DNA of 64,000 nt from positions 62,001 through 126,000 of the forward strand of contig NZ_BFFO01000001.1 in assembly GCF_003116835.1 (NCBI RefSeq), read 5' to 3'. Position 1 is the stretch's first letter, and each line of letters begins with the position of its first letter. The notes beneath the pieces are model-generated. The model ran no database searches. It was given only the letters and a program-made list of their open reading frames with translations, and was not told the origin of the DNA. The position numbers and the translations under genes were made by a program. Below are positions 1 to 12,566 of the stretch, piece after piece. The stretch is from Lactococcus termiticola (GTDB taxonomy: Bacteria; Bacillota; Bacilli; Lactobacillales; Streptococcaceae).

Positions 1-774
1 ATAGCCAAATTGATTTCGATTGATTCGCTCTGTCGGTGTTATTTTTGAGAGTGCGATCCGTTTTCCCGTGACTAAGAGCCGTTCATTATTAATCCCCGTC
101 GGATAACAAGTCACAAGTGTCGCCAGATCCTCACCTTTGATAATCCCCAAAGTTGAAACATCGCTCGGATTAACGACTTTAATATTAATCACTTCATATT
201 TCAAATCAAGATTTAAGGTATGAAGATAGAAAACATCATCTTTTTTCAACTTATCTAAATCACTAAAAAGTGTATCATTGACCCGTCCAGAGTGCGCTGC
301 CAAGACAGTATGTGTATTAGTACCACCAATGGGTAAACTCGTCTGCGAGAGATGACCGACCCCAATAGCAAGTGTACTTTCTGCATCGCCATGATAGATA
401 GGCACATCATTGACCGTAATCTGTGGAATTGAGATATAACCCATCATGCCTGATTTATCAATATTTAACGTACTATTGTAATCTGGAATTTTTCCAGACC
501 AAGGAATATGCTGACTCATGTCATAGACATATTCATTGTAAAGACGAGCATTGTAGAGTTTTGCCTGATCTAACATCTCTGTTATTTTTGACTTGCTTGT
601 CTTTGAAAGTTCTGAATTAAAATTTTGAACAGACTTGACTGCCTGTTGTGACGCCAAGTAATTTGCGACAATCGGGTAAAAGAGTACCCCCAAAGCAGTA
701 AGCAAAAGGATTGTGGATAAGATATTACGAATGGAATGTTTACTTCTAGCGGATTTTTTAGGTTTTTTATTCAT
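1..774 (-). CDS. Class C (pilus) sortase, partial at window edge
   Basis: The frame runs from an ATG at 774 off the left edge, giving 258 visible codons. It has a cationic start, one membrane segment (about residues 17-40) and the sortase fold, with His161 in AAHSG, Cys223 in TLVTCYPTG and Arg232 in ERLLVTGK. These are the catalytic His, Cys and Arg of sortases. It lies directly downstream of the pilin gene on the same strand, so it probably polymerises that pilin by transpeptidation at LPFTG (inference from family and context). The usual lid motif DPF is not obvious; HIPW stands in that area. A GGAAGG-type ribosome site precedes the ATG. The C-terminus, where class C enzymes carry a second membrane segment, is outside the window. 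Confidence 0.9.
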   Translation of the reverse strand, partial: MNKKPKKSARSKHSIRNILSTILLLTALGVLFYPIVANYLASQQAVKSVQNFNSELSKTSKSKITEMLDQAKLYNARLYNEYVYDMSQHIPWSGKIPDYNSTLNIDKSGMMGYISIPQITVNDVPIYHGDAESTLAIGVGHLSQTSLPIGGTNTHTVLAAHSGRVNDTLFSDLDKLKKDDVFYLHTLNLDLKYEVINIKVVNPSDVSTLGIIKGEDLATLVTCYPTGINNERLLVTGKRIALSKITPTERINRNQFGY

Positions 775-821
775 CCTATCCGCCTTCCTTTCATAAATTC
801 TTAACTGCAACCCTCATAAAA

Positions 822-2753
822 TTATGCTTGCTCTTCTTCGTTATTACGACGACGACGGATAACAAATCCAGCAATGCCTGCCCCTGCTGCCACAATTACA
901 ATAGCAGCAAGACCTTCACCACCAGTAAATGGTAAGGCAAAGGGTTTGTTATTGGTAATGACGTTATCATTTGTACCTGGTGTGTAGGTTCCACCCTCAT
1001 AATAAGTTGTATTAGCTGTAGAGCTACCGTCAGCTGCTGGTGTTGTATCCGCAGTTACTGCAAAGACATTAGCCCCTGTATTTGTGTCAGGTAAAGTATA
1101 ACCATTTGGCGATACAATTTCGACTGCATAATAGTTTTGTGAATTAATCCGGTCAGTATTACTATCCACAAGATTAAGTCCCGTGAAAGTCGCCACTTTA
1201 CCATTTGTTGAGGAAACTGTCGTTGGACTACTTCCAGCAGCAACCGTTGTTCCATCAGCATTAAGAAATTCTGCGCTAGTAGATGTAGCCCCAGCTGTCA
1301 AAGTACCATTACTATAAGTTGAACTTTCTGCAAGTGCTTGAGCATCTGATAAGCTAGCAGCTTTCACAAGAGCAAATACTGCCCCATTAAGACCACCATT
1401 TGCAGCTGTTGTCTGACCTGCTGCCACTTTTGAAAGTGCAACACCACCAACATTAAGCGTTGAACTAGCTGTCGTACTGTTCGTTGCCAAAACCGCACCA
1501 TAAGCATTTGTGATTGCTGTTGAAGCCTTATCTGATAGCGAGCCTACGGTACCAGCATTGACAGTTGTAGGAATAACAACATTTAAAGCACCATCAGCAT
1601 TACCAAGTGCAGCAGCAACTTTTTGTTGTCCAGAAGAAAGCAAAGTGATAGTAACTGTTTGACCGCTTGTTGTGACTGTGTAGTCTGTTCCAGCTGTCAA
1701 TGTTACAGGAACAGGATTTCCCGAACCATCTGTAACGTTGATCACAACAGGGTTTGATGTATTATAAGTCACCCCAGTTGGCAAAGTATCAGTGATAACA
1801 TATGAGCCTGTCACCCCTGTTGTTCCATCTCCATTGCTTGTTTGAGATGAGTCGAAAACTGTATTGACATTAAAGTTGACTGTATCTCCAGCAGCTGCGG
1901 TTGTTGTAATTCCACTATCGGCACTATTTGACCAAGTGCCATCATTAGCATTGTCATCACCAACATTTCCCATGTTACCTGAGCCATTATTATCAGTAGA
2001 ACTATTTGTGAGGGATTGATCTGCAACAGTCGATTGGCTAATCGTTTGACCATTTATACCAGTAAGTTTAATCTCATTTGGCGTATTACCAGCACCATTA
2101 TAGTTATCATTAGCATTTGTCGTCGCAACATCACCAAGACCTGATGAACTCGACATATCCAATTTCGGATAAACATTGACAAGCCCTGCTTGGGTATCGT
2201 TATTATTGACCTGTACGATAAAGTTCCCAACTGTTGTAATCCCATTGACCGTTGTTGTCTGGCTAATGATATAATAACCATTTGCAAGATTTGTAAAGTT
2301 GGCTACACCTGAAGCATTTGTTGTAGCAGGTACTGATGTAGACGTTAAAGTTGCACCATTCATATTAATTGTACCATCTGCACTTTGAGTTGGCATACCA
2401 GCAGATGTATCAAGCAAAGTCGCCGTAAAAGTGACATTTGCCATATCAGCTGTACTATCGAGAGAACTTTGGTCTGTCCCGTCATTTTTAGTAGCACCTG
2501 AGTTACCTGCTTGTGCTGGTGTTTGTCTGTTTGTGATACCTGCGTCATCAGTTCCAGAAGTAATATTTTGTGTTTTGGAAATATTACCAGCTGCGGACTG
2601 TGCATAGATTGTAATATTACCATTAGAAACACCGTCTGATGAATCTCTATCAGCGGCATTGACTTTAAGTCCAGCCAGGCCTCCAAGACTTGCAAAAGTA
2701 AGTAATGCTACACTTGCGACCGTCAATTTTTTGTTCATTTTTTTGAAATCCAT
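822..2753 (-). CDS. LPxTG backbone pilin subunit
   Basis: A 643-residue secreted protein. Residues 1-34 form a signal peptide ending near VNAA. VYPK at 194-197 fits the pilin motif whose Lys is joined to the LPxTG Thr of the next subunit. YYAVEIVSPNGY near 541-552 fits the E-box, with Glu about 545. The sorting signal LPFTGG (607-612), a hydrophobic stretch and RRRR close the chain. These are the hallmarks of SpaA/SpaD-type major pilins with isopeptide-stabilised domains. AGAAGGAG lies 8 nt before this ATG, so MDF is preferred over the inner Met6. The sortase gene follows after 47 bp. No minor or tip pilin is visible to the right, so either the locus continues left of the window or it is a minimal pilus. 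Confidence 0.92.
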   Translation of the reverse strand: MDFKKMNKKLTVASVALLTFASLGGLAGLKVNAADRDSSDGVSNGNITIYAQSAAGNISKTQNITSGTDDAGITNRQTPAQAGNSGATKNDGTDQSSLDSTADMANVTFTATLLDTSAGMPTQSADGTINMNGATLTSTSVPATTNASGVANFTNLANGYYIISQTTTVNGITTVGNFIVQVNNNDTQAGLVNVYPKLDMSSSSGLGDVATTNANDNYNGAGNTPNEIKLTGINGQTISQSTVADQSLTNSSTDNNGSGNMGNVGDDNANDGTWSNSADSGITTTAAAGDTVNFNVNTVFDSSQTSNGDGTTGVTGSYVITDTLPTGVTYNTSNPVVINVTDGSGNPVPVTLTAGTDYTVTTSGQTVTITLLSSGQQKVAAALGNADGALNVVIPTTVNAGTVGSLSDKASTAITNAYGAVLATNSTTASSTLNVGGVALSKVAAGQTTAANGGLNGAVFALVKAASLSDAQALAESSTYSNGTLTAGATSTSAEFLNADGTTVAAGSSPTTVSSTNGKVATFTGLNLVDSNTDRINSQNYYAVEIVSPNGYTLPDTNTGANVFAVTADTTPAADGSSTANTTYYEGGTYTPGTNDNVITNNKPFALPFTGGEGLAAIVIVAAGAGIAGFVIRRRRNNEEEQA

Positions 2754-2809
2754 CTGTATTTCTCCTTCTTGTTATTCGCCAACAAAATAAATCAATTATT
2801 TCATTTTTA

Positions 2810-2836
2810 ATTATATCACAATTTTTTATATTTCAA
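2810..2836 (-). promoter_or_regulatory. Putative promoter of the pilin-sortase operon
   Basis: On the minus strand TTGAAA (2831-2836) and TATAAT (2810-2815) are spaced by 15 bp, shorter than ideal. They lie about 57 bp upstream of the pilin start. Confidence 0.5.
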
Positions 2837-2894
2837 TGACATTAAGTCAAGAAACTGGACACCAAAAATTTTGACAGACTTTTTAAATTATTTT

Positions 2895-3054
2895 GGCTCT
2901 ATAATAAATCGTGCGGGAAATGTCCCACACGATTTATTATAGAGCCTAGAAACTTTAGGAAACGGGTATTCCTTATGAACATATAAAAAAATAGGCAACC
3001 GAGGTTACCTATTATCTTTGAGATTTTAAATCCCACACGATTTGACAAAGAGCC
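2895..3054. mobile_element. 160-bp MITE with ISL3-like ends and 8-bp target duplication
   Basis: The element starts GGCTCTATAATAAATCGTG and ends, read inward, GGCTCTTTGTCAAATCGTG (5 mismatches over the first 24 bases). It is flanked by the perfect direct repeat ATTATTTT at 2887-2894 and 3055-3062. An 8-bp duplication and GGCTCTTT-type ends are typical of ISL3-family elements as I recall them. It has no coding capacity, so it would need a transposase in trans. The left 52 bp (2895-2946) is itself a near-perfect palindrome made of an end plus its inverse. The right duplication overlaps the last base of the glycosyltransferase stop codon. It fills most of the 2754-3061 gap. Confidence 0.8.
2984..3013 (-). 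terminator. Intrinsic terminator inside the MITE
   Basis: On the minus strand AATAGGTAACC and GGTTGCCTATT pair around a 2-nt loop and are followed by seven T. It stands 50 bp past the stop codon of the glycosyltransferase gene, so the inserted element seems to supply that gene's terminator. Confidence 0.7.
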
Positions 3055-3061
3055 ATTATTT

Positions 3062-4750
3062 TTAATGATTATCATTCTTAAACTTCACATCTACATAATC
3101 CGCCCAAGCTCGCTCATAAGCTGCCTCAACGGAACGTGCAAAACCGTCCAAGTCATTTTTGAGTGCTGACTTTTCAACTGTTTCACGCAAGCTTTCACGA
3201 TAAAAACGCACTAATTCAATATCATTTGCCAGAGTTTTCCCTTTCTGAGCAAAACTTTCTTCATCTGATGCAGTAAAAGCACCATCAATACCGAGCATTC
3301 GATTAATTCGCGCAGTTCCTCGCGATTGCATTCCCTCAGCAGGCATTGTCAAAGTTGGCAAGCCCATATGAAGCGCCTCAATCGTAATCGACAGCCCACC
3401 AAATGGGGTTGGGTCAAGTCCGACGTCAGCTTTCAAATAAGCCTTAAAGTGCATATCAGGCACTTCACGAGAAAATTCTAAACGTGTTTCCAAAATCCCA
3501 AATTTTCTAAAACGCTCTTTCAACTGTGCAATCTTATCATCAGTCAACTGCGGACCATAACGATAAATCAAAAGTTTCGCCGTAGGCACAGCAAGCAACA
3601 GTTTCGACCACAAACGAATCGTTGACGTCGTGATTTTAGAAATATCATTGAAACACCCAAAAGTGATATAGCCATTTTTCTCCATTGGAAGTGGCGTAAT
3701 TTCTGGCAAATCAATATTTTTGCGTGTAAAGTTAAATCTATCCATACCAGCTTTGATATACATTGGTTTTTCCGTATAAAGGTCAGCCTTATTTTTAGGA
3801 ATAGTAAATTCATCACACATAATATAATCAATTTCTTTAAAGCCATAAGTGTTCAAAAATCCCATATATTGCGCTTGGATAGGTGCTGGCTTAAAAAGCA
3901 TGGCAAAGCTACGATTGTGCGTAAATCCACCCAAATCAATCAGAATATCGACCTTATCATCATGGATACGTTTCGCAAAGTCAAAATTATTCAACTTACT
4001 ACAATCAACAAAACGATTGCCACACGCCATAATTCGTGTCGTTGTGTCATCATATTGACGGTCAACAGTCGAATACAAGATAATATCATACTTCTTAGTA
4101 TCATGATGTTCTAGCAACGGTAAGATAAAACTCATCATCGTGTGATTATAGAAGTCAGAAGAAATATAACCAATCCGCAACTTTTTATGTAACATTGCTT
4201 TACGTTCCTCTGCGTCTGCTGGTTTCTCATAAGTATAAACCGTCCCATTCGCCTGAAACTTCATTGGCCAATCGCTGGCATACTCTTCGAGTTTATTTTT
4301 AATTCCTAATTGTGTATAAGCATCTGTCTTGATTGTCAGGAAATTTCGTCCACCATAGTTTGAGAAGTTATTATCCAACTGAAAAGCGCGGTCGTTGTAC
4401 TCAATACCCTTATCTTGGTCAAAAGAATAATAAATACTTGCCAAACGCATATAAATGCTCGGATTAGTTGTTGAGTATTCTAGCGTTTTTTCCAGATTTA
4501 CTCGCGCCTTGTCCATATCGTCCATCGCATAATAACAATCTCCGATTTTACGATAAAGCTCGCAATTATCAAACTCAAAACTATCATCAAGATAGCTAAA
4601 AGCTGAGCGATACAACTCAACCGCACGTTTTAAAGAAACATGATTGGCTTTATTTGCATTGCGCATATACATTTCATCGGCGGCACGAACCAAAGACAAA
4701 AAGTCAGGGTCTTCATTTCGTTTTCTAAGACGTTCTTCTTCTGTTGCCAT
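3062..4750 (-). CDS. GT41 (OGT/SPINDLY-like) glycosyltransferase with N-terminal TPRs
   Basis: 562 residues. Residues about 40-150 form TPR-like helices (for example ELYRKIGDCYYAMDDMDKA). The catalytic part begins LRIGYISSDFYNHTM (191-205), the GT41 signature with the conserved His203, followed by DILIDLGGFTHNRSF (about 268-282) and LDPTPFGGLSITIEALHMGL (445-464). GT41 enzymes attach sugars, usually GlcNAc from UDP-GlcNAc, to Ser/Thr of proteins. It is cytosolic and has no signal peptide. The gene lies 59 bp downstream of a Ser/Thr-rich adhesin gene on the same strand, so the adhesin is the probable acceptor (inference). GAGGAATAAAAT precedes the ATG. A MITE has landed exactly at its stop codon without changing the protein. 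Confidence 0.88.
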   Translation of the reverse strand: MATEEERLRKRNEDPDFLSLVRAADEMYMRNANKANHVSLKRAVELYRSAFSYLDDSFEFDNCELYRKIGDCYYAMDDMDKARVNLEKTLEYSTTNPSIYMRLASIYYSFDQDKGIEYNDRAFQLDNNFSNYGGRNFLTIKTDAYTQLGIKNKLEEYASDWPMKFQANGTVYTYEKPADAEERKAMLHKKLRIGYISSDFYNHTMMSFILPLLEHHDTKKYDIILYSTVDRQYDDTTTRIMACGNRFVDCSKLNNFDFAKRIHDDKVDILIDLGGFTHNRSFAMLFKPAPIQAQYMGFLNTYGFKEIDYIMCDEFTIPKNKADLYTEKPMYIKAGMDRFNFTRKNIDLPEITPLPMEKNGYITFGCFNDISKITTSTIRLWSKLLLAVPTAKLLIYRYGPQLTDDKIAQLKERFRKFGILETRLEFSREVPDMHFKAYLKADVGLDPTPFGGLSITIEALHMGLPTLTMPAEGMQSRGTARINRMLGIDGAFTASDEESFAQKGKTLANDIELVRFYRESLRETVEKSALKNDLDGFARSVEAAYERAWADYVDVKFKNDNH

Positions 4751-4809
4751 ATTTTATTCCTCTATTAAATGAAAGCCCCATTTTCAGGAGCTTCCTTTTT
4801 TATCAAAAC

Positions 4810-7452
4810 TTAACTTTTCTTAAGTTTAGCTTTTCCTTTACGTTTTTTAAGTAATAATCCTGCGGCTGTTGCGACAAATGCTGCACCACCCACCATACTA
4901 AGAGTATTATCTAAGGAATTATCTCCTGTTTTTGGCAGGACAGCGCCTGATGAAGCTGGTGTTTTATTACTCACCATTGTCGTCATTCCCGTAGAAGCAG
5001 TCGGACTACTGCTTGAACCTGTTGTACCAGTCGAATTCGTTGGTGTTGAACTTGAACCTGTCGTGCCTGTCGAATTCGTCGGTGTTGAACTTGAATCCGT
5101 TGGATTTGTTGGATTCGTTGGATTCGTTGGTGGAGTTGAATCACTTGGCGTACTACTTGAGATTGATGATGAGCCTGTCGAGCTACTTACCCATGTGCCA
5201 GATGTCGAACCTGTGGTACTTGTCGAGCCAGTCGTTTCGCTTGTCCAAGTGCTTGAGCCTGTGCCACCTGTTGAGTTAGTTGTTGCAGAGGAGAAGCTGG
5301 AAACGGTGCTATAGCTTGAACCAGATGTCCAAGTTGAGCCAGTCGTGCCAGATGAATAGGTATTTGTCCAAGTTGAGCCTGATGAATTTGACGTGCCTGA
5401 TGAATTCGTCGAGCCTGTCGAGTTAGATGTCACACCTGTACTGCTTGAACTAGAGCTATTGCTAGTAGTCAGACCAGTATTTGTTCCTTCTGACCAACCG
5501 CTACTCACACTTGATGAGCTACCTGTCGTGCCAGATGATGAAAATGTTGAGTTCGTCGTGCCTGTGCTAGACATTGTACTGGCTGTTGTGCCTGTGCCAC
5601 CTGTCGAGTTCGTGGTTGAGCTAGCTGTTGAGAAGGTTGAGCTAAAGGTTGAGTTGGTCGAACCAGTAGAGCCTGTCGTCCAAGTCGAGCCAGTAGAGCT
5701 AGAAGATGACGAACTGTTCGTCGTACCACTCGAATTTGAGTTTTGTGATGTGCTTGATGTAAAGGTAGAGCCTGATGGTCCATTTGTCATTCCTGTCGTG
5801 CTGCTACTATCTGTGGCTTCATCTGTTGCAACCATTGAAGAAATCCACGTCGCTTCAGACCAAGAAGACTCGGATGACGAAATCGACTGCCAAACACCGC
5901 TCTCAATCGTTCCGTTACTGATAGTGTTGGTCGTTGCCCCTGTCGAAAGTGGTGTTTGAGAGATATTTCCTGAGTAGTCGGTGTTCGCACCTGATGAGCT
6001 ACTTCCTGTCGAGTAAGTCGTTCCCGACATTTGTGTCGATGCTGTTGTCCCAGAAGAGAAGGTGTTGGTCCATGACGAACCGGTCATCTGGGTAGAGCCT
6101 GAAATATTTCCTGTGTTGGCAGTATTAGACCCTGTATTTGACGATGACGTCGAGTAAGTCGCTGTGCCAGCAGTTGCATCTGAGCTTGCCGTCACACCTG
6201 AACTCGAACCTGATGTAATCGTCGTGTAACCATAGGTCTGAGAAGACTGTGAACTCGTTGTTTCTGTTGCCCAACCTGCAACATTACTAAAACTATAACC
6301 ACTTTGAGCAGTCACCTGGGTTACGTCCTCCAGGGTTGAAACGTTCATTGTGCCTGAAGAGATGGTGGTATAAGTCTCAAAATTATCATCAGTGGACACA
6401 GTAGATGCCGTTGTTATTGCTGTCGTGCTCGCACTACCAATACCATTACTGCTATTAGTAGAGTTTACCTTAGTTTCCGCTGATGCACCACCCACTACTA
6501 GATTTGTAGAATTTGAATTAGAAACTCTTGTAGAACCCGTCATTAAAGTCGACGTGCTATTTGAGATACTTGTGCCTGTCTCTGAACTCCCACTTGTTGA
6601 AGCAAAAGTACCACCCCCATCTGGAGAGGTCATATTGCTTTGAATCGAACCTATAGAAGTAAACGCAGTATCGGTGATATTTGAATTACTACTCCGTGTC
6701 ACTCCTGTCGAGTTCGTCGAGTAGAGGGTTTGTCCTGTAGCAACACCCGTCTCAAAAGTCATCGCCGCCCCACTGTCTAAAGTCGATCCTGAGCTAAAAG
6801 CTGAACCATAATGCGTCCCTGTGGTTTGGGTGCTCTCTAGCGTACTGCTACTATAGATATTTTGGGTGGACTGAGTCGTAGCAGTCGTTGCACCGTTAGT
6901 TTCTGTCGTGCTTCCTGTCGTTGAATCTGTCGTCGCTTGAGTCGCTTGGGTTTGCAGCTGTGTCCCTGTCACACCTGTTGCTGCTGTATTGGTATTTGTA
7001 TTTGATGTTGAATGTGAAGTCGACGTAAGTCCTGTCATGATGATCGAGTTTGTCGTCGCACTCATCGTTGAATTACTGCTCTCTGTTGCTGAACTTGAAC
7101 CAGATGTCACACCACTCCCTACGATTGAATAGTTTGGATCGCCAGGGTCGTGCGAAGGAAAAGTCATCGTACTTTGAGATGGTGGAAGGGCAGCATCTGC
7201 TTGGACAGGTACGCCTGTGAGATTGGCTAAGATTTTTTGTGCAGAAAATGCTTGAACCGTAACGTGCGTTAAAATTGCTGTACCATCTGCAAGCTGTGGA
7301 TTTGAGATAACAAAAACAAGGTTTGCTGCTGCATAAAGCCATGATTTACCGACTTTCCATGCGCGAAAATGCGAGGTCTTTTTTTCGGCTGACTTCGCGA
7401 GTTTTTGCTGTTTTGCAACATAATCTTTTTCATGAATGCTGATGTATTTCAT
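4810..7452 (-). CDS. Serine/threonine-rich LPxTG adhesin with KxYKxGKxW-type signal peptide
   Basis: 880 residues. RAWKVGKSW at 30-38 matches the KxYKxGKxW long signal peptide of streptococcal serine-rich repeat proteins, followed by a hydrophobic stretch and VQADA. A short non-repetitive part precedes about 700 residues of Ser/Thr/Gly/Asn-rich irregular repeats (GSTWT, TGSTNS types), then a Thr/Pro stretch and the sorting signal LPKTGDNS, a hydrophobic segment and KKRKGKAKLKK. It is thus covalently wall-anchored and a likely O-glycoprotein. GAGGA lies 7 nt before the ATG at 7452; a TTG two codons earlier is less likely. No secA2/secY2/asp or GtfA/GtfB genes are seen here; the neighbouring GT41 enzyme is the only glycosyltransferase. 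Confidence 0.9.
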   Translation of the reverse strand: MKYISIHEKDYVAKQQKLAKSAEKKTSHFRAWKVGKSWLYAAANLVFVISNPQLADGTAILTHVTVQAFSAQKILANLTGVPVQADAALPPSQSTMTFPSHDPGDPNYSIVGSGVTSGSSSATESSNSTMSATTNSIIMTGLTSTSHSTSNTNTNTAATGVTGTQLQTQATQATTDSTTGSTTETNGATTATTQSTQNIYSSSTLESTQTTGTHYGSAFSSGSTLDSGAAMTFETGVATGQTLYSTNSTGVTRSSNSNITDTAFTSIGSIQSNMTSPDGGGTFASTSGSSETGTSISNSTSTLMTGSTRVSNSNSTNLVVGGASAETKVNSTNSSNGIGSASTTAITTASTVSTDDNFETYTTISSGTMNVSTLEDVTQVTAQSGYSFSNVAGWATETTSSQSSQTYGYTTITSGSSSGVTASSDATAGTATYSTSSSNTGSNTANTGNISGSTQMTGSSWTNTFSSGTTASTQMSGTTYSTGSSSSGANTDYSGNISQTPLSTGATTNTISNGTIESGVWQSISSSESSWSEATWISSMVATDEATDSSSTTGMTNGPSGSTFTSSTSQNSNSSGTTNSSSSSSSTGSTWTTGSTGSTNSTFSSTFSTASSTTNSTGGTGTTASTMSSTGTTNSTFSSSGTTGSSSSVSSGWSEGTNTGLTTSNSSSSSSTGVTSNSTGSTNSSGTSNSSGSTWTNTYSSGTTGSTWTSGSSYSTVSSFSSATTNSTGGTGSSTWTSETTGSTSTTGSTSGTWVSSSTGSSSISSSTPSDSTPPTNPTNPTNPTDSSSTPTNSTGTTGSSSTPTNSTGTTGSSSSPTASTGMTTMVSNKTPASSGAVLPKTGDNSLDNTLSMVGGAAFVATAAGLLLKKRKGKAKLKKS

Positions 7453-7488
7453 AGGCAATCCTCATTTTTATTTTTGCTTAGGAATGTT

Positions 7489-7516
7489 AGTGTTTCTCCT
7501 TACTAGGAGAAACACT
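7489..7516. promoter_or_regulatory. 12-bp perfect hairpin in the adhesin 5' leader
   Basis: AGTGTTTCTCCT and AGGAGAAACACT pair around TACT. It lies between the adhesin promoter and start codon. No T-run follows on the minus strand, so it looks like an mRNA leader stem or operator rather than a terminator. Confidence 0.5.
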
Positions 7517-7573
7517 CTTTTGGGGACAAAAAGACGTTTTTTATAAATTACCGCTTTTTAATTTTATGTAATC

Positions 7574-7602
7574 ATTATAACACACCGTGATATAAATCTC
7601 AA
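7574..7602 (-). promoter_or_regulatory. Putative adhesin promoter
   Basis: On the minus strand TTGAGA (7597-7602), 17 bp, then TATAAT (7574-7579). This leaves a leader of roughly 115 nt before the adhesin ATG. Confidence 0.65.
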
Positions 7603-8030
7603 CAAAAGTTTAAAAAAAGACTCCGTCTCAGTTTTGGTTAGAATACCACTATACATAGTTTTCTAGCATTAAGCAGATATTGCAAAATTTAATAAAAAAA
7701 CTGAGAACATACACTCGCTGCCCTCAGCCTTGATTATTTTACAGGAATCATGTAAAATTATCTCCGTTGAGTAAAGCAAGTTCGAATTGTTTTACTCTCA
7801 GCGTCTTAGTTTGTGCTAAGGCGCTTATTTTATTATCTTCAATTTAATGCTTTGAGTATAACAAAAAAACGCATAAATTTCAAGGAATTATTACATCATT
7901 TACTATTAAATTTTAATGAGAACTAATTTTTCTACATAACGAATAACTATTATTTTATAAAATTACCATCTTGCGTCAAACGACCTGGCATTATTGGTTC
8001 GTGTGGACGTGAAACAATGTCAATGTAATC
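7603..8030 (+). other. Non-coding stretch with three consecutive hairpins
   Basis: No gene is supported in the first part of this gap. Between 7736 and 7835 three hairpins follow each other: ATTTTACA/TGTAAAAT (7736-7758), GAGTAAAGCAA/TTGTTTTACTC (7769-7797) and GCGTCTTAG/CTAAGGCGC (7801-7824). The last is followed by TTATTTTATT and so reads as a plus-strand terminator. The set could be the 3' end of a small RNA or of a lost gene. The right end (7950-8030) is a truncated reading frame against the insertion sequence. Confidence 0.4.
7950..8030 (-). pseudogene. C-terminal fragment of an unidentified gene cut by the IS
   Basis: An open frame of 26 codons (DYIDIVSRPHEPIMPGR and onward, then TAA) runs on the minus strand up to the left end of the insertion sequence. 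It has no start of its own. I do not recognise the family. It does not resemble the end of lacA, whose start lies on the other side of the IS. Confidence 0.35.
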
Positions 8031-8107
8031 TGGAGCTATACTATAAAAGTGGACAGATAAACGTATGTTATAATCTGTTTAATAAACATTAAAAAGGAAA
8101 CCTTTCT

Positions 8108-8383
8108 ATGTCTAAATTTAAAAGATACGATGATGAATTTAAAAAATCTCTCGTCGACCTGCACATTGCTGGTAAAACTCAATCAGACCTCTGCCGAGAT
8201 TACGGCGTTTCAGGCTCTGCTCTCTCTAAATGGGTCAAACAATTCTCTGAGGTTAAACTTGAGGATAATTCTGTTCTTACTGCAAAACAGATTCAAGAAC
8301 TTCAAAAAAGAAATGCTCAATTAGAAGAGGAAAACCTCATCTTAAAAAAAGCAAGTGCCATATTCATGCAAAACTCCAAATAA
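8108..8383 (+). CDS. IS3-family OrfA (transposase DNA-binding subunit)
   Basis: 91 residues. The N-terminal half is a helix-turn-helix of the transposase_8 type (RYDDEFKKSLVDLHIAGKTQ onward, then SGSALSKWVKQ). The C-terminal half is a Leu-rich coiled coil (IQELQKRNAQLEEENLILKKA) used for multimerisation. CTTAAAAAAAGC near its end is a plausible -1 slippery site for making OrfAB. AAAGGAAACC precedes the ATG. Confidence 0.85.
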   Translation: MSKFKRYDDEFKKSLVDLHIAGKTQSDLCRDYGVSGSALSKWVKQFSEVKLEDNSVLTAKQIQELQKRNAQLEEENLILKKASAIFMQNSK

Positions 8384-9247
8384 GAATTAAAGCAGTCTAT
8401 CGGTTACGATTTGAACACACGACAGTTACTCTCTGTCGTGTTTTACATGTCAATCGGTCAACCCTACTATCATTTCATTAACAGAAAGCCATCTAAGCGT
8501 GACATTGATAATCAACGCTTTAGAAAACTACTTCTTGAAATTTATATGAAAGCCAAGAAAAGAATTGGAACAAGAGCTTTTAAAATCATACTACTGCGTG
8601 ACTATGGCATCAATATCTCGGAGGGAAGAATCTATCGACTCTTGAAGTCAATGAATCTTCCCAAAATGTCAACGACTAAGCCTCGTTTCAAATCAAGAAA
8701 ACCGCCTGAATTTTCTTCTGATAACTTACTTAAACAAGAATTTAATCCTAAATCTCCCAATCAAGTCTGGACGACTGATTTCACTTATATTTCTATTGGC
8801 CACAAACGACACGTTTACCTTTGCGCTATTCTTGATCTCTACTCTAGAAAATGTATTGCTTGGAAAATTAGCGATAAAATTGATGCCAAATTAGCCTGTG
8901 ATACATTACAAATCGCAGTTAATACAAGAAGACCAACTGAAACAATTATTTTCCACTCTGACCAAGGCAGCCAGTTTAAATCCAAGGAATTTCGAAGACT
9001 GTTGGATGAACATCAGTTAATGCCGTCTTATTCTAAACCAGGATATCCTTATGATAACGCAGTCACTGAGGTCTTTTTCAAGTATCTTAAGCAACGTGAA
9101 ATCAATCGAAGAAGATTCACCTCAATTGATGAAGTGAGACTATCTTGCTTTGAGTATATTGAACAATTTTATAATAACTATAATCCTCATTCTGCCAATA
9201 ATGGATTAACTCCTAATCAGAAAGAAATGGATTATTTTAAAAATTAA
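8383..9247 (+). pseudogene. IS3-family OrfB (DDE transposase), frameshifted
   Basis: The proper OrfB start is in the -1 frame relative to OrfA, where RIKAVYRLRFEHTTVTLCRV is readable from 8383. At ACCC (8461-8464) one extra C moves the reading into the OrfA frame, which continues YYHFINRKPS to the stop at 9247. The rve integrase core is otherwise whole: Asp in TTDFTYI, Asp in HSDQGSQF and Glu in TEVFFKYLK. The full OrfAB fusion cannot be made as the sequence stands. A shortened frame from 8411 could still give the catalytic part. A base-call error in the C run is an alternative. Confidence 0.75.
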
Positions 9248-9284
9248 TTTCCATTTTCGTGTCTAATTATTTGACATTAGTCCA

Positions 9285-9481
9285 GGCTGGATGAAGCTAT
9301 CTTCGCCTACTTCAGCGAACATCTGTTGAAGAAGCTCCTGCTGGCGGGCTTCATCCGTCACAGTGGTCTGATTATAGGCCTCCATCAAGGTCTGACAAGC
9401 CTGCTGCTCTTGGATAAGGGCTGGGTCAGCCGGGTCGTAGATGACCCCATCAGGCTGATGTTTTAATTTTTCTTTCTTCAT
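9285..9481 (-). pseudogene. lacA: 5' fragment of lacA-like sugar O-acetyltransferase, cut by the IS
   Basis: The first 66 codons match the N-terminus of maltose/galactoside acetyltransferases (GVIYDPADPALIQEQQAC, then EVGEDSFIQP). The normal protein is about 190-200 residues with a left-handed beta-helix. After FIQP the frame enters the IS end and stops within a few codons. Its ATG overlaps the galT stop as ATGA, so it was the next gene of the operon. The acetyl-CoA-binding and hexapeptide parts are gone, so it should be inactive. Confidence 0.8.
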
Positions 9482-10950
9482 AAGCTCTCAATAAATTTCT
9501 GGAAGCCAGCCTTGCCATCTGCATCTGCCTTAAAGACAGCGGCGTCTTCTAGGACCTCCATGAAGACCTGGCCGACAGCCTGTTGGACGATACATTTGAC
9601 ATGTTCTGGACTGATATTTTCTGTCGCCTTGAGCTGGTCTGCCCAGGCCTTATGAATTTCGGCAATTTTATTTTCCTGGCCCAGGAGGTATTTCTCAACC
9701 TCTTCGAGCTCACTCTTGAGGCGGGGTGGCAGGATGGCGAGGCCCATGACCTCAATCAGGCCAATGTTTTCCTTCTTGATATGGAACTTGTCCTGATGAG
9801 GGTGGAAAATGCCGTCAGGATAGGCCTCCGAGACATTATTATCCCGGAGGACCAGGTCCATCTCAAAGTGGCCTGCCCGCATCCGGGCAATCGGTGTGAT
9901 GGTATGATGGAGCGTACCATCAGCGTCCACTGCCTTTATCATCCGAGCCTCGTCAGAATAGCTTCGCCATTGGCTCAGGATATAGTCACTGGCATCCAGC
10001 AACTCTGCCTTATCGCTCGAGGTCAGCCGGATCACTGACATAGGCCAGTTGACAATGCCTGCTTCCAGATTTGGAAATTGCTCCAGGCTGAAGGTCTCAC
10101 GGAGGCCAGCCTTGGCCATTGGAAAGTCGTGACAACCGGCCTGGTAGTGGTCGTGGCTCAAGATAGAACCGCCGACAATCGGCAGGTCAGCATTGCTCCC
10201 AATCATATAGTGGGGGAATTTTTCCAAAAATGAGAGCAGATTTTCAAAGCTGGTCCGATTGATTTTCATGGGCTGGTGCTTTTGATTGAGCACGATCGAA
10301 TGCTCATTGTAGTAGGCATAGGGTGAGTACTGGAAGCCCCAGTCCTGCCCCCCCAGCTCTAGGCGGACAATCCGGTGGTTGCTCCGTGCGGCCTTGTGGG
10401 CATCACCGTAGAAGCCCTCGTTTTCCATGCAGAGGGCACAAAGCGGGTAGCTCGAGCTGGCCTGATTTTTCGCCGCAGCGATGGCCTTGGGGTCTTTTTC
10501 AGGCTTTGATAAGTTAATCGTAATCTCCAGCTCACCGTATTTTGACGGATAGCTGTAGGCGATGTTTCTGGCTACTTCTCGAGTCTTTACCTGATTGACC
10601 GTCTTTGCTAGACCATAAAAATAGTCGGTCGCTTCCTCTGGGCTGGCTTGATAGGCCTCCCAGAAGTCCCGATTAACCCGACTGGGTCTTGGCGTGATGA
10701 AATCCATCAGGGCCTCCTGATAAAAGTCTTCCTGACCGAGAGCGTAGGCCCCATTCTCCGAAGCCACTGCCATCAGGCCGTCGAGGAGCTCGAGCGAGTC
10801 GGCGGTCATAGGCTCAGTCTCCTGCCAGTCATTGAGGCCTAAAAAATGCAGGAGTTGATTTCTCAGATAGAGCTTGTCCTCTGGCTCAGCGGCCCCATTT
10901 TTGACGGCCAGCTCTACAAAGGCTGTTATCAGTTGGTAAGGATTCATCAT
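9478..10950 (-). CDS. galT: Galactose-1-phosphate uridylyltransferase (Firmicutes type)
   Basis: 490 residues, the usual length of the long Gram-positive GalT family. It swaps UMP between UDP-glucose and galactose-1-phosphate in the Leloir pathway. SHDHYQAG (about residue 268) carries the active-site His pair, and the uracil/zinc region shows SSSYPLCALCMENEGF. It follows an alpha-galactosidase remnant after 2 bp and overlaps lacA by 4 nt. Two adjacent ATG codons are possible starts; AAAGAAAG is a weak ribosome site, so coupling with the upstream frame is likely. Confidence 0.95.
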   Translation of the reverse strand: MMNPYQLITAFVELAVKNGAAEPEDKLYLRNQLLHFLGLNDWQETEPMTADSLELLDGLMAVASENGAYALGQEDFYQEALMDFITPRPSRVNRDFWEAYQASPEEATDYFYGLAKTVNQVKTREVARNIAYSYPSKYGELEITINLSKPEKDPKAIAAAKNQASSSYPLCALCMENEGFYGDAHKAARSNHRIVRLELGGQDWGFQYSPYAYYNEHSIVLNQKHQPMKINRTSFENLLSFLEKFPHYMIGSNADLPIVGGSILSHDHYQAGCHDFPMAKAGLRETFSLEQFPNLEAGIVNWPMSVIRLTSSDKAELLDASDYILSQWRSYSDEARMIKAVDADGTLHHTITPIARMRAGHFEMDLVLRDNNVSEAYPDGIFHPHQDKFHIKKENIGLIEVMGLAILPPRLKSELEEVEKYLLGQENKIAEIHKAWADQLKATENISPEHVKCIVQQAVGQVFMEVLEDAAVFKADADGKAGFQKFIESL

Positions 10951-10952
10951 AA

Positions 10953-11363
10953 CTAAACTTTCTTTATGTGGAATTGATAAGCGGGATAATCTCCAATGCT
11001 CTGTGGCAGGCGGAGGCCGGCCCGCATGAGGAGACTGCCCCGGTAGGACTCGGCCCCATCGATTTGATAAATCGCCTCAGGGTCGAGGCCTTGGAGCTTG
11101 ACGTAGTTATAAGGGCTATTGCCCTCAACATCGGTCAAGACCATGTTCAAGAGGCTTTCTGATTGGTCTTTGGCGACAAATTGCCAGATGCTCGAAGCTG
11201 TCTCAAAAGGACAGGTCAACAGGTAGCCTGTGTCTTCAGGCGGAATCTTTGTCCCATAATAGAGATGGAGGAGGTGTTCAAAGGCCCCGACCTTCATCTG
11301 ATAGATCGAATGTTCCGTCTCGAGGTTAAATAGTCTGTTTTTTTCATCAACGATAATAGCCAT
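10953..11363 (-). pseudogene. aga: Internally deleted alpha-galactosidase (GH36) remnant, still in frame
   Basis: 136 residues. The first about 45 (MAIIVDEKNRLFNLETEHS, then HLLHLYYGTKI) resemble the extreme N-terminus of GH36 alpha-galactosidases. The rest (CPFETASSIWQFVAKDQSE, KLQGLDPEAIYQIDG, LLMRAGLRLP, then GDYPAYQFHIKK) resembles their C-terminal beta-sandwich. About 600 residues with the catalytic barrel and both Asp residues are missing. The frame is uninterrupted, so a short non-catalytic protein could be made. It sits between galK and galT, where aga is found in raffinose-using lactococci (from memory). This is a recognisable in-frame deletion, not an unrelated small gene. Confidence 0.72.
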
Positions 11364-11366
11364 AGG

Positions 11367-12566
11367 CTATACCTCCAGTTGGGTTGCTCCTGAGCCGATT
11401 TGAGCGACGTAGAAGCTAGCTGGGTAGCCGACGCTTTCTGCGTAAACGTCGCCGACAGCCTTTTCAAAGGCTGGGACACTATCGTGTTTGACGAGGGCGA
11501 TGGCACAGCCACCAAAGCCGGCACCGGTCATCCGGGCACCCAGGCAACCTTCCTGCTTCTGAGCGGTCTCAGCCAAAGTATCAAGCTCAAGTCCTGTGAC
11601 CTCGTAATCTTCTTTGAGTGACGCGTGGCTGGCGTTGAGCAGGCGACCGAATTCTTCTAAGTCGCCGGCCACAAAGGCTTTTTGAGCCACCTTACAGCGG
11701 TTGTTTTCATAGACAGCGTGCCGAGCCCGTTTGACCAGGGTCTCGTCATCAATCAAAGGCACAGCCTTGCTGTCAAAGTCTTCATTGGAGAGCTCGCCGA
11801 GGGAGCCGATAGAGAGCTCAGCCTGTACGCGTTTCAGGGCCTCACGGGTTTCAGCGAAACGTTCGTTGTATTTAGATTCGGTCAGGGCACGGGGCTTGTT
11901 GGTATTCATGATGACAATGTCATAGTCGCCAAGCTCGGCCGGTACCATCTCATACTTGAGCGTATTGCAGTCGAGCAGGATGGCCTTGCCGATTTCGCCA
12001 AAGCCAATGGCAAACTGGTCGAGGATGCCTGAGTTGACACCGATGTATTCATTTTCTGTTTTTTGACCGAGTTTGACCAGCTCAAGGCGGGAAACATCGA
12101 GCTTGAAGAGGTTTTCAAGGACAACGCCCGCCAGGAGCTCAAGTGAAGCTGAGCTTGATAGGCCTGATGCTGTAGGAATTTCACCTGATACAAGGAGTTC
12201 AAAGCCCTTGTCAATGCTGTATCCGGCCTCATCGAGGGCGACAATCATCCCCTTGACATAGTTGATCCATTCGCCATCCTTCTTGTCTTTCACGTCGGCC
12301 AGGTCAAATTCGAGGACGCCAGCATCTGGAAAATTCACAGAGTAAAGACGGACCTTCTGGTCGTCACGGAGGCGGGCAAGGCCAGTCGTTCCGATGGTAA
12401 TAGAGGCTGGGAAGACGTAGCCACCGTTGTAGTCAGTGTGTTCGCCAATCAGATTAATCCGGCCTGGCGAGAAGAAATATTCGACATTTTCAGTATCACC
12501 AAAGACCTTGGCAAATTGATGGTTCAAGCCTGTTAAGATTTCAGAATTATCAACAACAATAGACAT
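11367..12566 (-). CDS. galK: Galactokinase
   Basis: 399 residues, a full-length GHMP kinase. SPGRINLIGEHTDYNGGYVF (33-52) is the galactokinase signature. GEIPTASGLSSSASLELL is the ATP loop and GARMTGAGFGGCAIAL is motif 3. It phosphorylates galactose at C1 in the cytosol and feeds GalT. The start follows the galM stop by 0 nt (stop at 12567), and the aga remnant follows 3 bp after its stop, so it belongs to the tight permease-galM-galK-galT operon. Confidence 0.97.
   Translation of the reverse strand: MSIVVDNSEILTGLNHQFAKVFGDTENVEYFFSPGRINLIGEHTDYNGGYVFPASITIGTTGLARLRDDQKVRLYSVNFPDAGVLEFDLADVKDKKDGEWINYVKGMIVALDEAGYSIDKGFELLVSGEIPTASGLSSSASLELLAGVVLENLFKLDVSRLELVKLGQKTENEYIGVNSGILDQFAIGFGEIGKAILLDCNTLKYEMVPAELGDYDIVIMNTNKPRALTESKYNERFAETREALKRVQAELSIGSLGELSNEDFDSKAVPLIDDETLVKRARHAVYENNRCKVAQKAFVAGDLEEFGRLLNASHASLKEDYEVTGLELDTLAETAQKQEGCLGARMTGAGFGGCAIALVKHDSVPAFEKAVGDVYAESVGYPASFYVAQIGSGATQLEV

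Follow-up and report, generated by a model that had tools for sequence, protein, structure and literature searches.

The usual substrates of accessory Sec are the glycosylated serine-rich (SRR) adhesins of streptococci. The substrates of bacterial GT41 glycosyltransferases that carry TPRs are, to our knowledge, largely unknown. Two such enzymes, TtOGT and XcOGT, displayed little or no activity on proteins in vitro (PMC9715652, available part). In S. salivarius, adhesin glycosylation is started by GtfE and GtfF (excerpts of PMC5826255 and PMC6973325), and the adhesin modified by HMW1C, a GT41 enzyme, is glycosylated while still cytoplasmic and only then exported by Sec (excerpt of PMC3983070). 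Among the matches listed in a search with partial literature coverage, no GT41 enzyme was described from lactic acid bacteria or in association with a Gram-positive wall adhesin.

The window analysed here (the whole 64-kb stretch of DNA; G+C content 46.7%) belongs to a genome assembled into 22 contigs, with 1,734,781 bases in total and 269,516 in contig 1. We take L. termiticola to be the present name of the strain, Lactococcus sp. NtB2. It is a gut bacterium of Nasutitermes takasagoensis, a termite (PMC6003746).

The adhesin gene and the TPR-GT41 gene

A gene for a Ser/Thr-rich wall adhesin had been recognised next to a TPR-GT41 gene in a previous sequence-only reading, and both reading frames are indeed open, on the same minus strand. 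The wall-anchored, adhesin-like protein is encoded at 4810..7452 (minus strand; 880 aa from the ATG). This ATG, at the position 7452 that had been given as the end coordinate of the gene, is preceded by a GAGG ribosome site and is a better start than the alternative TTG at 7458, which yields 882 aa and was the version used in the profile scans. The mature region (the adhesin minus its first 90 and last 45 residues) consists of 28% Ser and 25% Thr. An LPKTG sortase motif is encoded at 4924-4938 (minus strand), with Gram_pos_anchor above cut-off, and the LPXTG model TIGR01167 scored 20.8, 25.9 and 21.6 bits (cut-off 15.9) in the three adhesins compared below. The window adhesin is devoid of the SxS alternation typical of SRR proteins: 39 SxS were counted in 747 residues, versus 974 in 2963 for the SRR adhesin resident elsewhere in the NtB2 genome.

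Upstream of the adhesin gene lies a promoter-like TTGAGA-17-TATAAT element (7574..7602, minus strand; hexamers read by eye). The 5' untranslated region contains a perfect hairpin (7489..7516, minus strand), identical in L. nasutitermitis, which may control expression; the 110-base leader has a folding z of -4.6, and no Rfam match was found in positions 1-12000 of the window. The 59-base gap between the two genes holds another hairpin (4767..4795, minus strand; z -3.9 for the window copy). In L. nasutitermitis a hairpin of different sequence was seen by eye in the same place, and the intergenic hairpin is possibly an attenuator.

The second gene (3062..4750, minus strand) encodes the TPR-GT41 glycosyltransferase, of 562 aa. 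The GT41 catalytic domain model PF13844 scored 142 bits (cut-off 25), a short TPR region (residues about 47-130) matched consensus TPR proteins, and the closest PDB sequences by profile were SPY (E 7e-84), TtOGT (5e-69) and human OGT (8e-60). The conserved residues H203 and K372 were invariant in all five GT41 sequences aligned, and the alignment places them at the catalytic His and Lys of OGT and SPY. The OGT residues are presumably H498 and K842. Those of SPY are H495 and K665 (PMC9715652, PMC10027727, both in part). Similarly, F450 (F in four of the five sequences and Y in one) aligns with OGT C917, SPY Y744 and ApHMW1C F517, A437 with OGT R904 and SPY A731, and E458 with SPY E752, all of which figure as specificity residues in the available parts of PMC9715652 and PMC10027727. 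Where UDP-GlcNAc use by OGT goes with a small residue at C917 and an Arg at R904, the window enzyme has F450 and A437. The counterpart of SPY Lys 689 is Y396 in an ungapped alignment, or R397 if the gap introduced by HMMER is right. An intermediate, partly prokaryotic GT41 group with mixed residues is described in the part of PMC10027727 available.

No match to gmd exceeded the cut-off in any of the three pair-bearing genomes; weaker matches, of at most 60 bits against 415, would belong to the wider enzyme family. Two candidate sugars were lowered in rank, O-GlcNAc by the bulky aromatic F450 and fucose by this gmd result. Since the pocket Phe is that of HMW1C and not the Cys of OGT, and no gmd was found over the cut-off, a plain hexose appears likelier than GlcNAc or fucose; UDP-glucose or UDP-galactose would be our guess for the donor.

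An AlphaFold2 model of the enzyme made from three sequences had a mean pLDDT of 41.2 and a pTM of 0.28. Comparison of the window GT41 gene with that of L. nasutitermitis gave a dN of 0.013 and a dS of 0.31 (dN/dS about 0.04): the enzyme is under purifying selection.

Conservation and transfer of the pair

At E 1e-20, the window GT41 was found in three of the 245 genomes sampled from the family. The same pair is present in L. nasutitermitis NBRC 111537 (GT41 98% identical) and in the Streptococcaceae MAG TD116_bin48 (GT41 75% identical). In all three genomes the adhesin gene precedes the GT41 gene on the same strand, and in each the surroundings are different: pilus and galactose genes in the NtB2 window, deoB in L. 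nasutitermitis and energy-coupling-factor ATPases in the MAG. The pair is real and conserved, and its linkage is established; the pairing put forward in the sequence-only reading has held up in these three genomes, between two of which it also moved together (see below). Beyond the family, an alignment used at E 1e-30 detected GT41 in one of 395 genomes sampled across the order, its own, and in eight of 398 across the phylum, its own and seven of one other family, whose GT41s are distant enzymes; a flagellin-like gene was seen by eye near one of eight stretches from that other family. No relative turned up when viral contigs were scanned with the GT41 alignment.

In the MAG, a hexapeptide acetyltransferase gene (L016:7113-7877) is inserted between the adhesin and GT41 genes. 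Asp2 acetylates the glycan of GspB, and by analogy this enzyme might perhaps acetylate the glycan of the MAG adhesin.

The 42 kb around the pair were compared by blastn with the 17.7-kb L. nasutitermitis locus (E 1e-10). Three blocks of similarity were obtained, of 92.7% over 3055-4944, 81% over 5098-5782 and 91% over 7319-7602; in the adhesin gene, the central part (5783-7318) has diverged past DNA alignment, and there was no match outside 3055-7602. The whole cassette as delimited in this way (3055..7602, minus strand) extends from the promoter to just beyond the GT41 stop, and its edge is the outer edge of the promoter-like element (-35 box). The baseline between the two genomes is 72% identity for SecA and 73% for SecY. 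Because the DNA of the pair matches, the flanks do not and SecA and SecY are 72-73% identical, the comparison shows that the pair moved as a unit between the NtB2 and L. nasutitermitis lineages. The G+C content of the L. nasutitermitis locus (39.8%) is near that of the GT41 gene (38.5%), and our reading is that transfer would have been from a low-G+C relative into NtB2. The composition case for transfer rests on the GT41 gene, since the adhesin gene, at 46.2% G+C, is similar to the window.

An IS3-type transposase gene (8411-9247), with a smaller open reading frame beside it (from 8108), lies upstream of the cassette. The adjoining pilus operon (window 822-2753 and L005 7241-11473, contig 1) encodes a SpaH/EbpB-type major pilin, a D1-type pilin and a large LPXTG protein. 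The latter is apparently broken into two frames (L005 10350-10736 and 7241-10339), the longer of which had no Pfam match. The operon also encodes, in one open frame, a sortase with a C-terminal DUF3990 domain (L005:11470-12810 = C1:61470-62810); the start of this gene falls in window positions 1-810.

Two other GT41 genes were noted. A paralogue (45%) is present in NtB2 between oppF and era (L006:13321-14925 = C1:173321-174925), with no wall protein beside it. On contig 99 of MAG TD116_bin48, a second TPR-GT41 gene follows a collagen-like LPXTG gene at a distance of 206 bases (L021:1495-4331), the Collagen model scoring below cut-off on this LPXTG protein; the arrangement hints at a wider theme of GT41 enzymes associated with wall proteins.

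Export of the adhesin and alternative readings

We favour, with a probability of about 0.6, the reading that the two genes form a surface-glycoprotein cassette, in which the TPR-GT41 enzyme would glycosylate the Ser/Thr-rich LPXTG adhesin and export would follow the general Sec route. One promoter would drive both genes. The disordered, Ser/Thr-rich chain would be held in the cytoplasm by the short TPR domain while the GT-B domain placed single sugars on many Ser and Thr residues; most likely each would be a hexose (Glc or Gal) donated by a UDP-sugar. After this light modification the adhesin would leave through SecA1/SecY, and a sortase would fix it to the wall. We infer from the sequences that the adhesin is the GT41 substrate, as we do the O-linkage and the identity of the sugar; use of general Sec in NtB2 is plausible on the same grounds. 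That the pair is a self-contained, mobile Gram-positive O-glycosylation cassette, whose single hexoses let the heavily modified Ser/Thr stalk pass ordinary Sec with no accessory machinery, is a bolder version, to which we would give slightly less than even odds.

The adhesin carries a KxYKxGKxW-type signal motif, FRAWKVGKSW (7339..7368, minus strand), followed by a hydrophobic core with no Gly. The corresponding model, TIGR03715, scored 17.6 bits in the window adhesin, 19.9 in that of L. nasutitermitis and 15.2 in that of the MAG (cut-off 18). A similar signal occurs in 37 of the 245 family genomes, and at nine places in the L. nasutitermitis genome, the adhesin among them. It is no specific mark of accessory Sec, because Asp2 had no match in seven of the 14 Lactococcus genomes that carry such a signal. 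When 20 similar signals were read, 18 had one to three Gly in the core, and the remaining two, from the window and L. nasutitermitis, had none; all five signals read from Lactococcus genomes without an Asp2 match had two, and the MAG adhesin has GGG. Signals were also read at 11 accessory Sec loci (ten others and that of NtB2), a set in which independent loci are fewer because several are near-identical pairs. The motif was matched at eight of them, six with at least two adjacent Gly and two (G017 and G043a) with no recognisable hydrophobic core. Core Gly as a marker of accessory Sec was rejected, as Gly cores are also found in Lactococcus without Asp2 and in the MAG adhesin. GlcNAc-modified GspB with three Gly of the signal core replaced is exported by general Sec at about the level of accessory Sec (excerpt of PMC5578698). 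By analogy, the Gly-free core of the window and L. nasutitermitis adhesins may argue for general Sec, and weakly so, because of the Gly-bearing signals in genomes without Asp2 and in the MAG adhesin.

The sequence-only reading had seen no accessory Sec genes. This is correct for the window, where SecA, SecY and Asp2 had no match in 64 kb, and incorrect for the NtB2 genome, where SecA and SecY are each encoded twice and Asp2 once. A locus on contig 2 contains genes for SecA2, SecY2, Asp1, Asp2, Asp3, GtfA, a short GtfB-like protein and a further glycosyltransferase, upstream of its own SRR adhesin (3098 residues, mature part 2963). SecA2 scored 920.8 bits, just under the cut-off of 930; SecY2 was the best-scoring family, below cut-off; Asp1, Asp2 and Asp3 were all over cut-off; GtfA, at 261 bits, was below the equivalog cut-off, and the GtfB-like protein had 39 bits (E 3e-10). 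About 5 kb before secA2, a 309-residue SRR-LPXTG frame with no evident signal peptide (L013:16097-17026 = C2:176097-177026) looks like a remnant. With SecA2, SecY2, Asp1-3, GtfA and a GtfB-like protein present, what had been inferred from the missing accessory genes is not supported in NtB2. A locus dedicated to the window adhesin had been named as an observation that would speak against the earlier reading, and the contig 2 locus sits with an adhesin of its own. Because the NtB2 genome carries such a locus, it could nevertheless export the window adhesin or further modify it.

The L. nasutitermitis genome, a draft estimated to be 100% complete, has one SecA match, aligned along its length with NtB2 SecA1, and one SecY (340.5 bits), like NtB2 SecY1. 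The searches made in it covered SecA, SecY and Asp2 and revealed no Asp2, SecA2 or SecY2; by eye, no second glycosyltransferase gene was seen within 8 kb on either side of the pair. Given this complement, the evident path for export is general Sec, and the pair seems to need no accessory Sec in this species. The MAG is 89% complete, with one SecA match and no SecY found, and because of this incompleteness its single SecA tells little. The general Sec path proposed earlier fits L. nasutitermitis, and in NtB2 it has to be weighed against the accessory locus.

In NtB2 the adhesin might instead be an extra client of the contig 2 accessory Sec system, with GtfA/B starting the glycans, GT41 only adding a further sugar and SecA2/SecY2 acting in export. 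The locus is there, the S. salivarius SRR proteins are exported by SecA2/Y2 with GtfE/F encoded outside the secA2/Y2 locus (PMC5826255 and PMC6973325, available parts), and the signal core of the MAG adhesin is rich in Gly. We consider this unlikely, as L. nasutitermitis has the pair and no SecA2, SecY2 or Asp2 was found in it, and as the window adhesin lacks both SxS repeats (39/747 versus 974/2963) and core Gly. Somewhat less likely again, GT41 would modify other proteins, cytoplasmic or of the wall, its position beside the adhesin being incidental. The paralogue between oppF and era, which adjoins no wall protein, would fit, as would the very many targets of eukaryotic OGT (PMC9715652, in part); such a coincidence is difficult to reconcile with three pairings out of three in different surroundings, with the co-transfer of both genes and with the second GT41 of MAG TD116_bin48, which also follows an LPXTG protein gene. 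Finally, an HMW1C-like N-glycosyltransferase putting hexose on adhesin Asn residues is most improbable: ApHMW1C and GT41 share the pocket Phe and HMW1C enzymes do pair with adhesins (excerpt of PMC3983070), but GT41 has TPRs, the name HMW1C is absent among the 40 PDB sequences that it matched at E <= 0.01, and N-sequons are not enriched in the three adhesins (26, 22 and 18 observed versus 26.7, 30.2 and 17.4 expected; z -0.2, -2.1 and 0.2). Because of these sequon counts, the data favour an O-linkage, as supposed in the reading of a two-gene cassette served by general Sec.

Comparison with known systems

The window enzyme resembles SPINDLY/OGT in having TPRs and a GT41 catalytic domain, in keeping the catalytic Lys and His and in its best PDB matches. 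Unlike them, it is bacterial, has a short TPR region and is linked to one wall adhesin; its specificity residues are mixed (A437, F450, E458), and no gmd was found over the cut-off. If the proposed reading is true, bacterial TPR-GT41 enzymes would gain a protein substrate that is evident from the neighbouring gene.

Like SRR adhesins, the window adhesin has a long N-terminal KxYKxGKxW-type signal, a Ser/Thr-rich stalk and an LPXTG anchor. It differs from them in that GT41 replaces the GtfA/B pair, Thr is about as common as Ser, SxS alternation is lacking and the gene is linked to no secA2, secY2 or asp gene in the window; moreover, the pair also occurs in a genome in which no SecA2, SecY2 or Asp2 was found. 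If true, a one-enzyme pair in a species without accessory Sec would test whether glycan size or glycosylation itself creates the need for that system. The glycosyltransferase gene being unlinked to a secA2/Y2 locus recalls GtfE/GtfF and SrpA-C of S. salivarius (PMC5826255, PMC6973325, available parts), where, unlike in the window pair, two enzymes act, GtfE is annotated as family 4 and export is by SecA2/Y2 (PMC5826255, same limits).

HMW1C of Haemophilus has an AAD domain instead of TPRs, makes N-linkages and serves Gram-negative two-partner secretion (excerpt of PMC3983070), whereas the window pair has neither a sequon-rich acceptor nor an AAD domain replacing the TPRs. What the window pair has in common with HMW1C/HMW1 is a single cytoplasmic GT41 enzyme for one adhesin, a proposed order in which sugar transfer precedes passage through Sec and, as read here from the sequence, a bulky aromatic residue in the sugar pocket.
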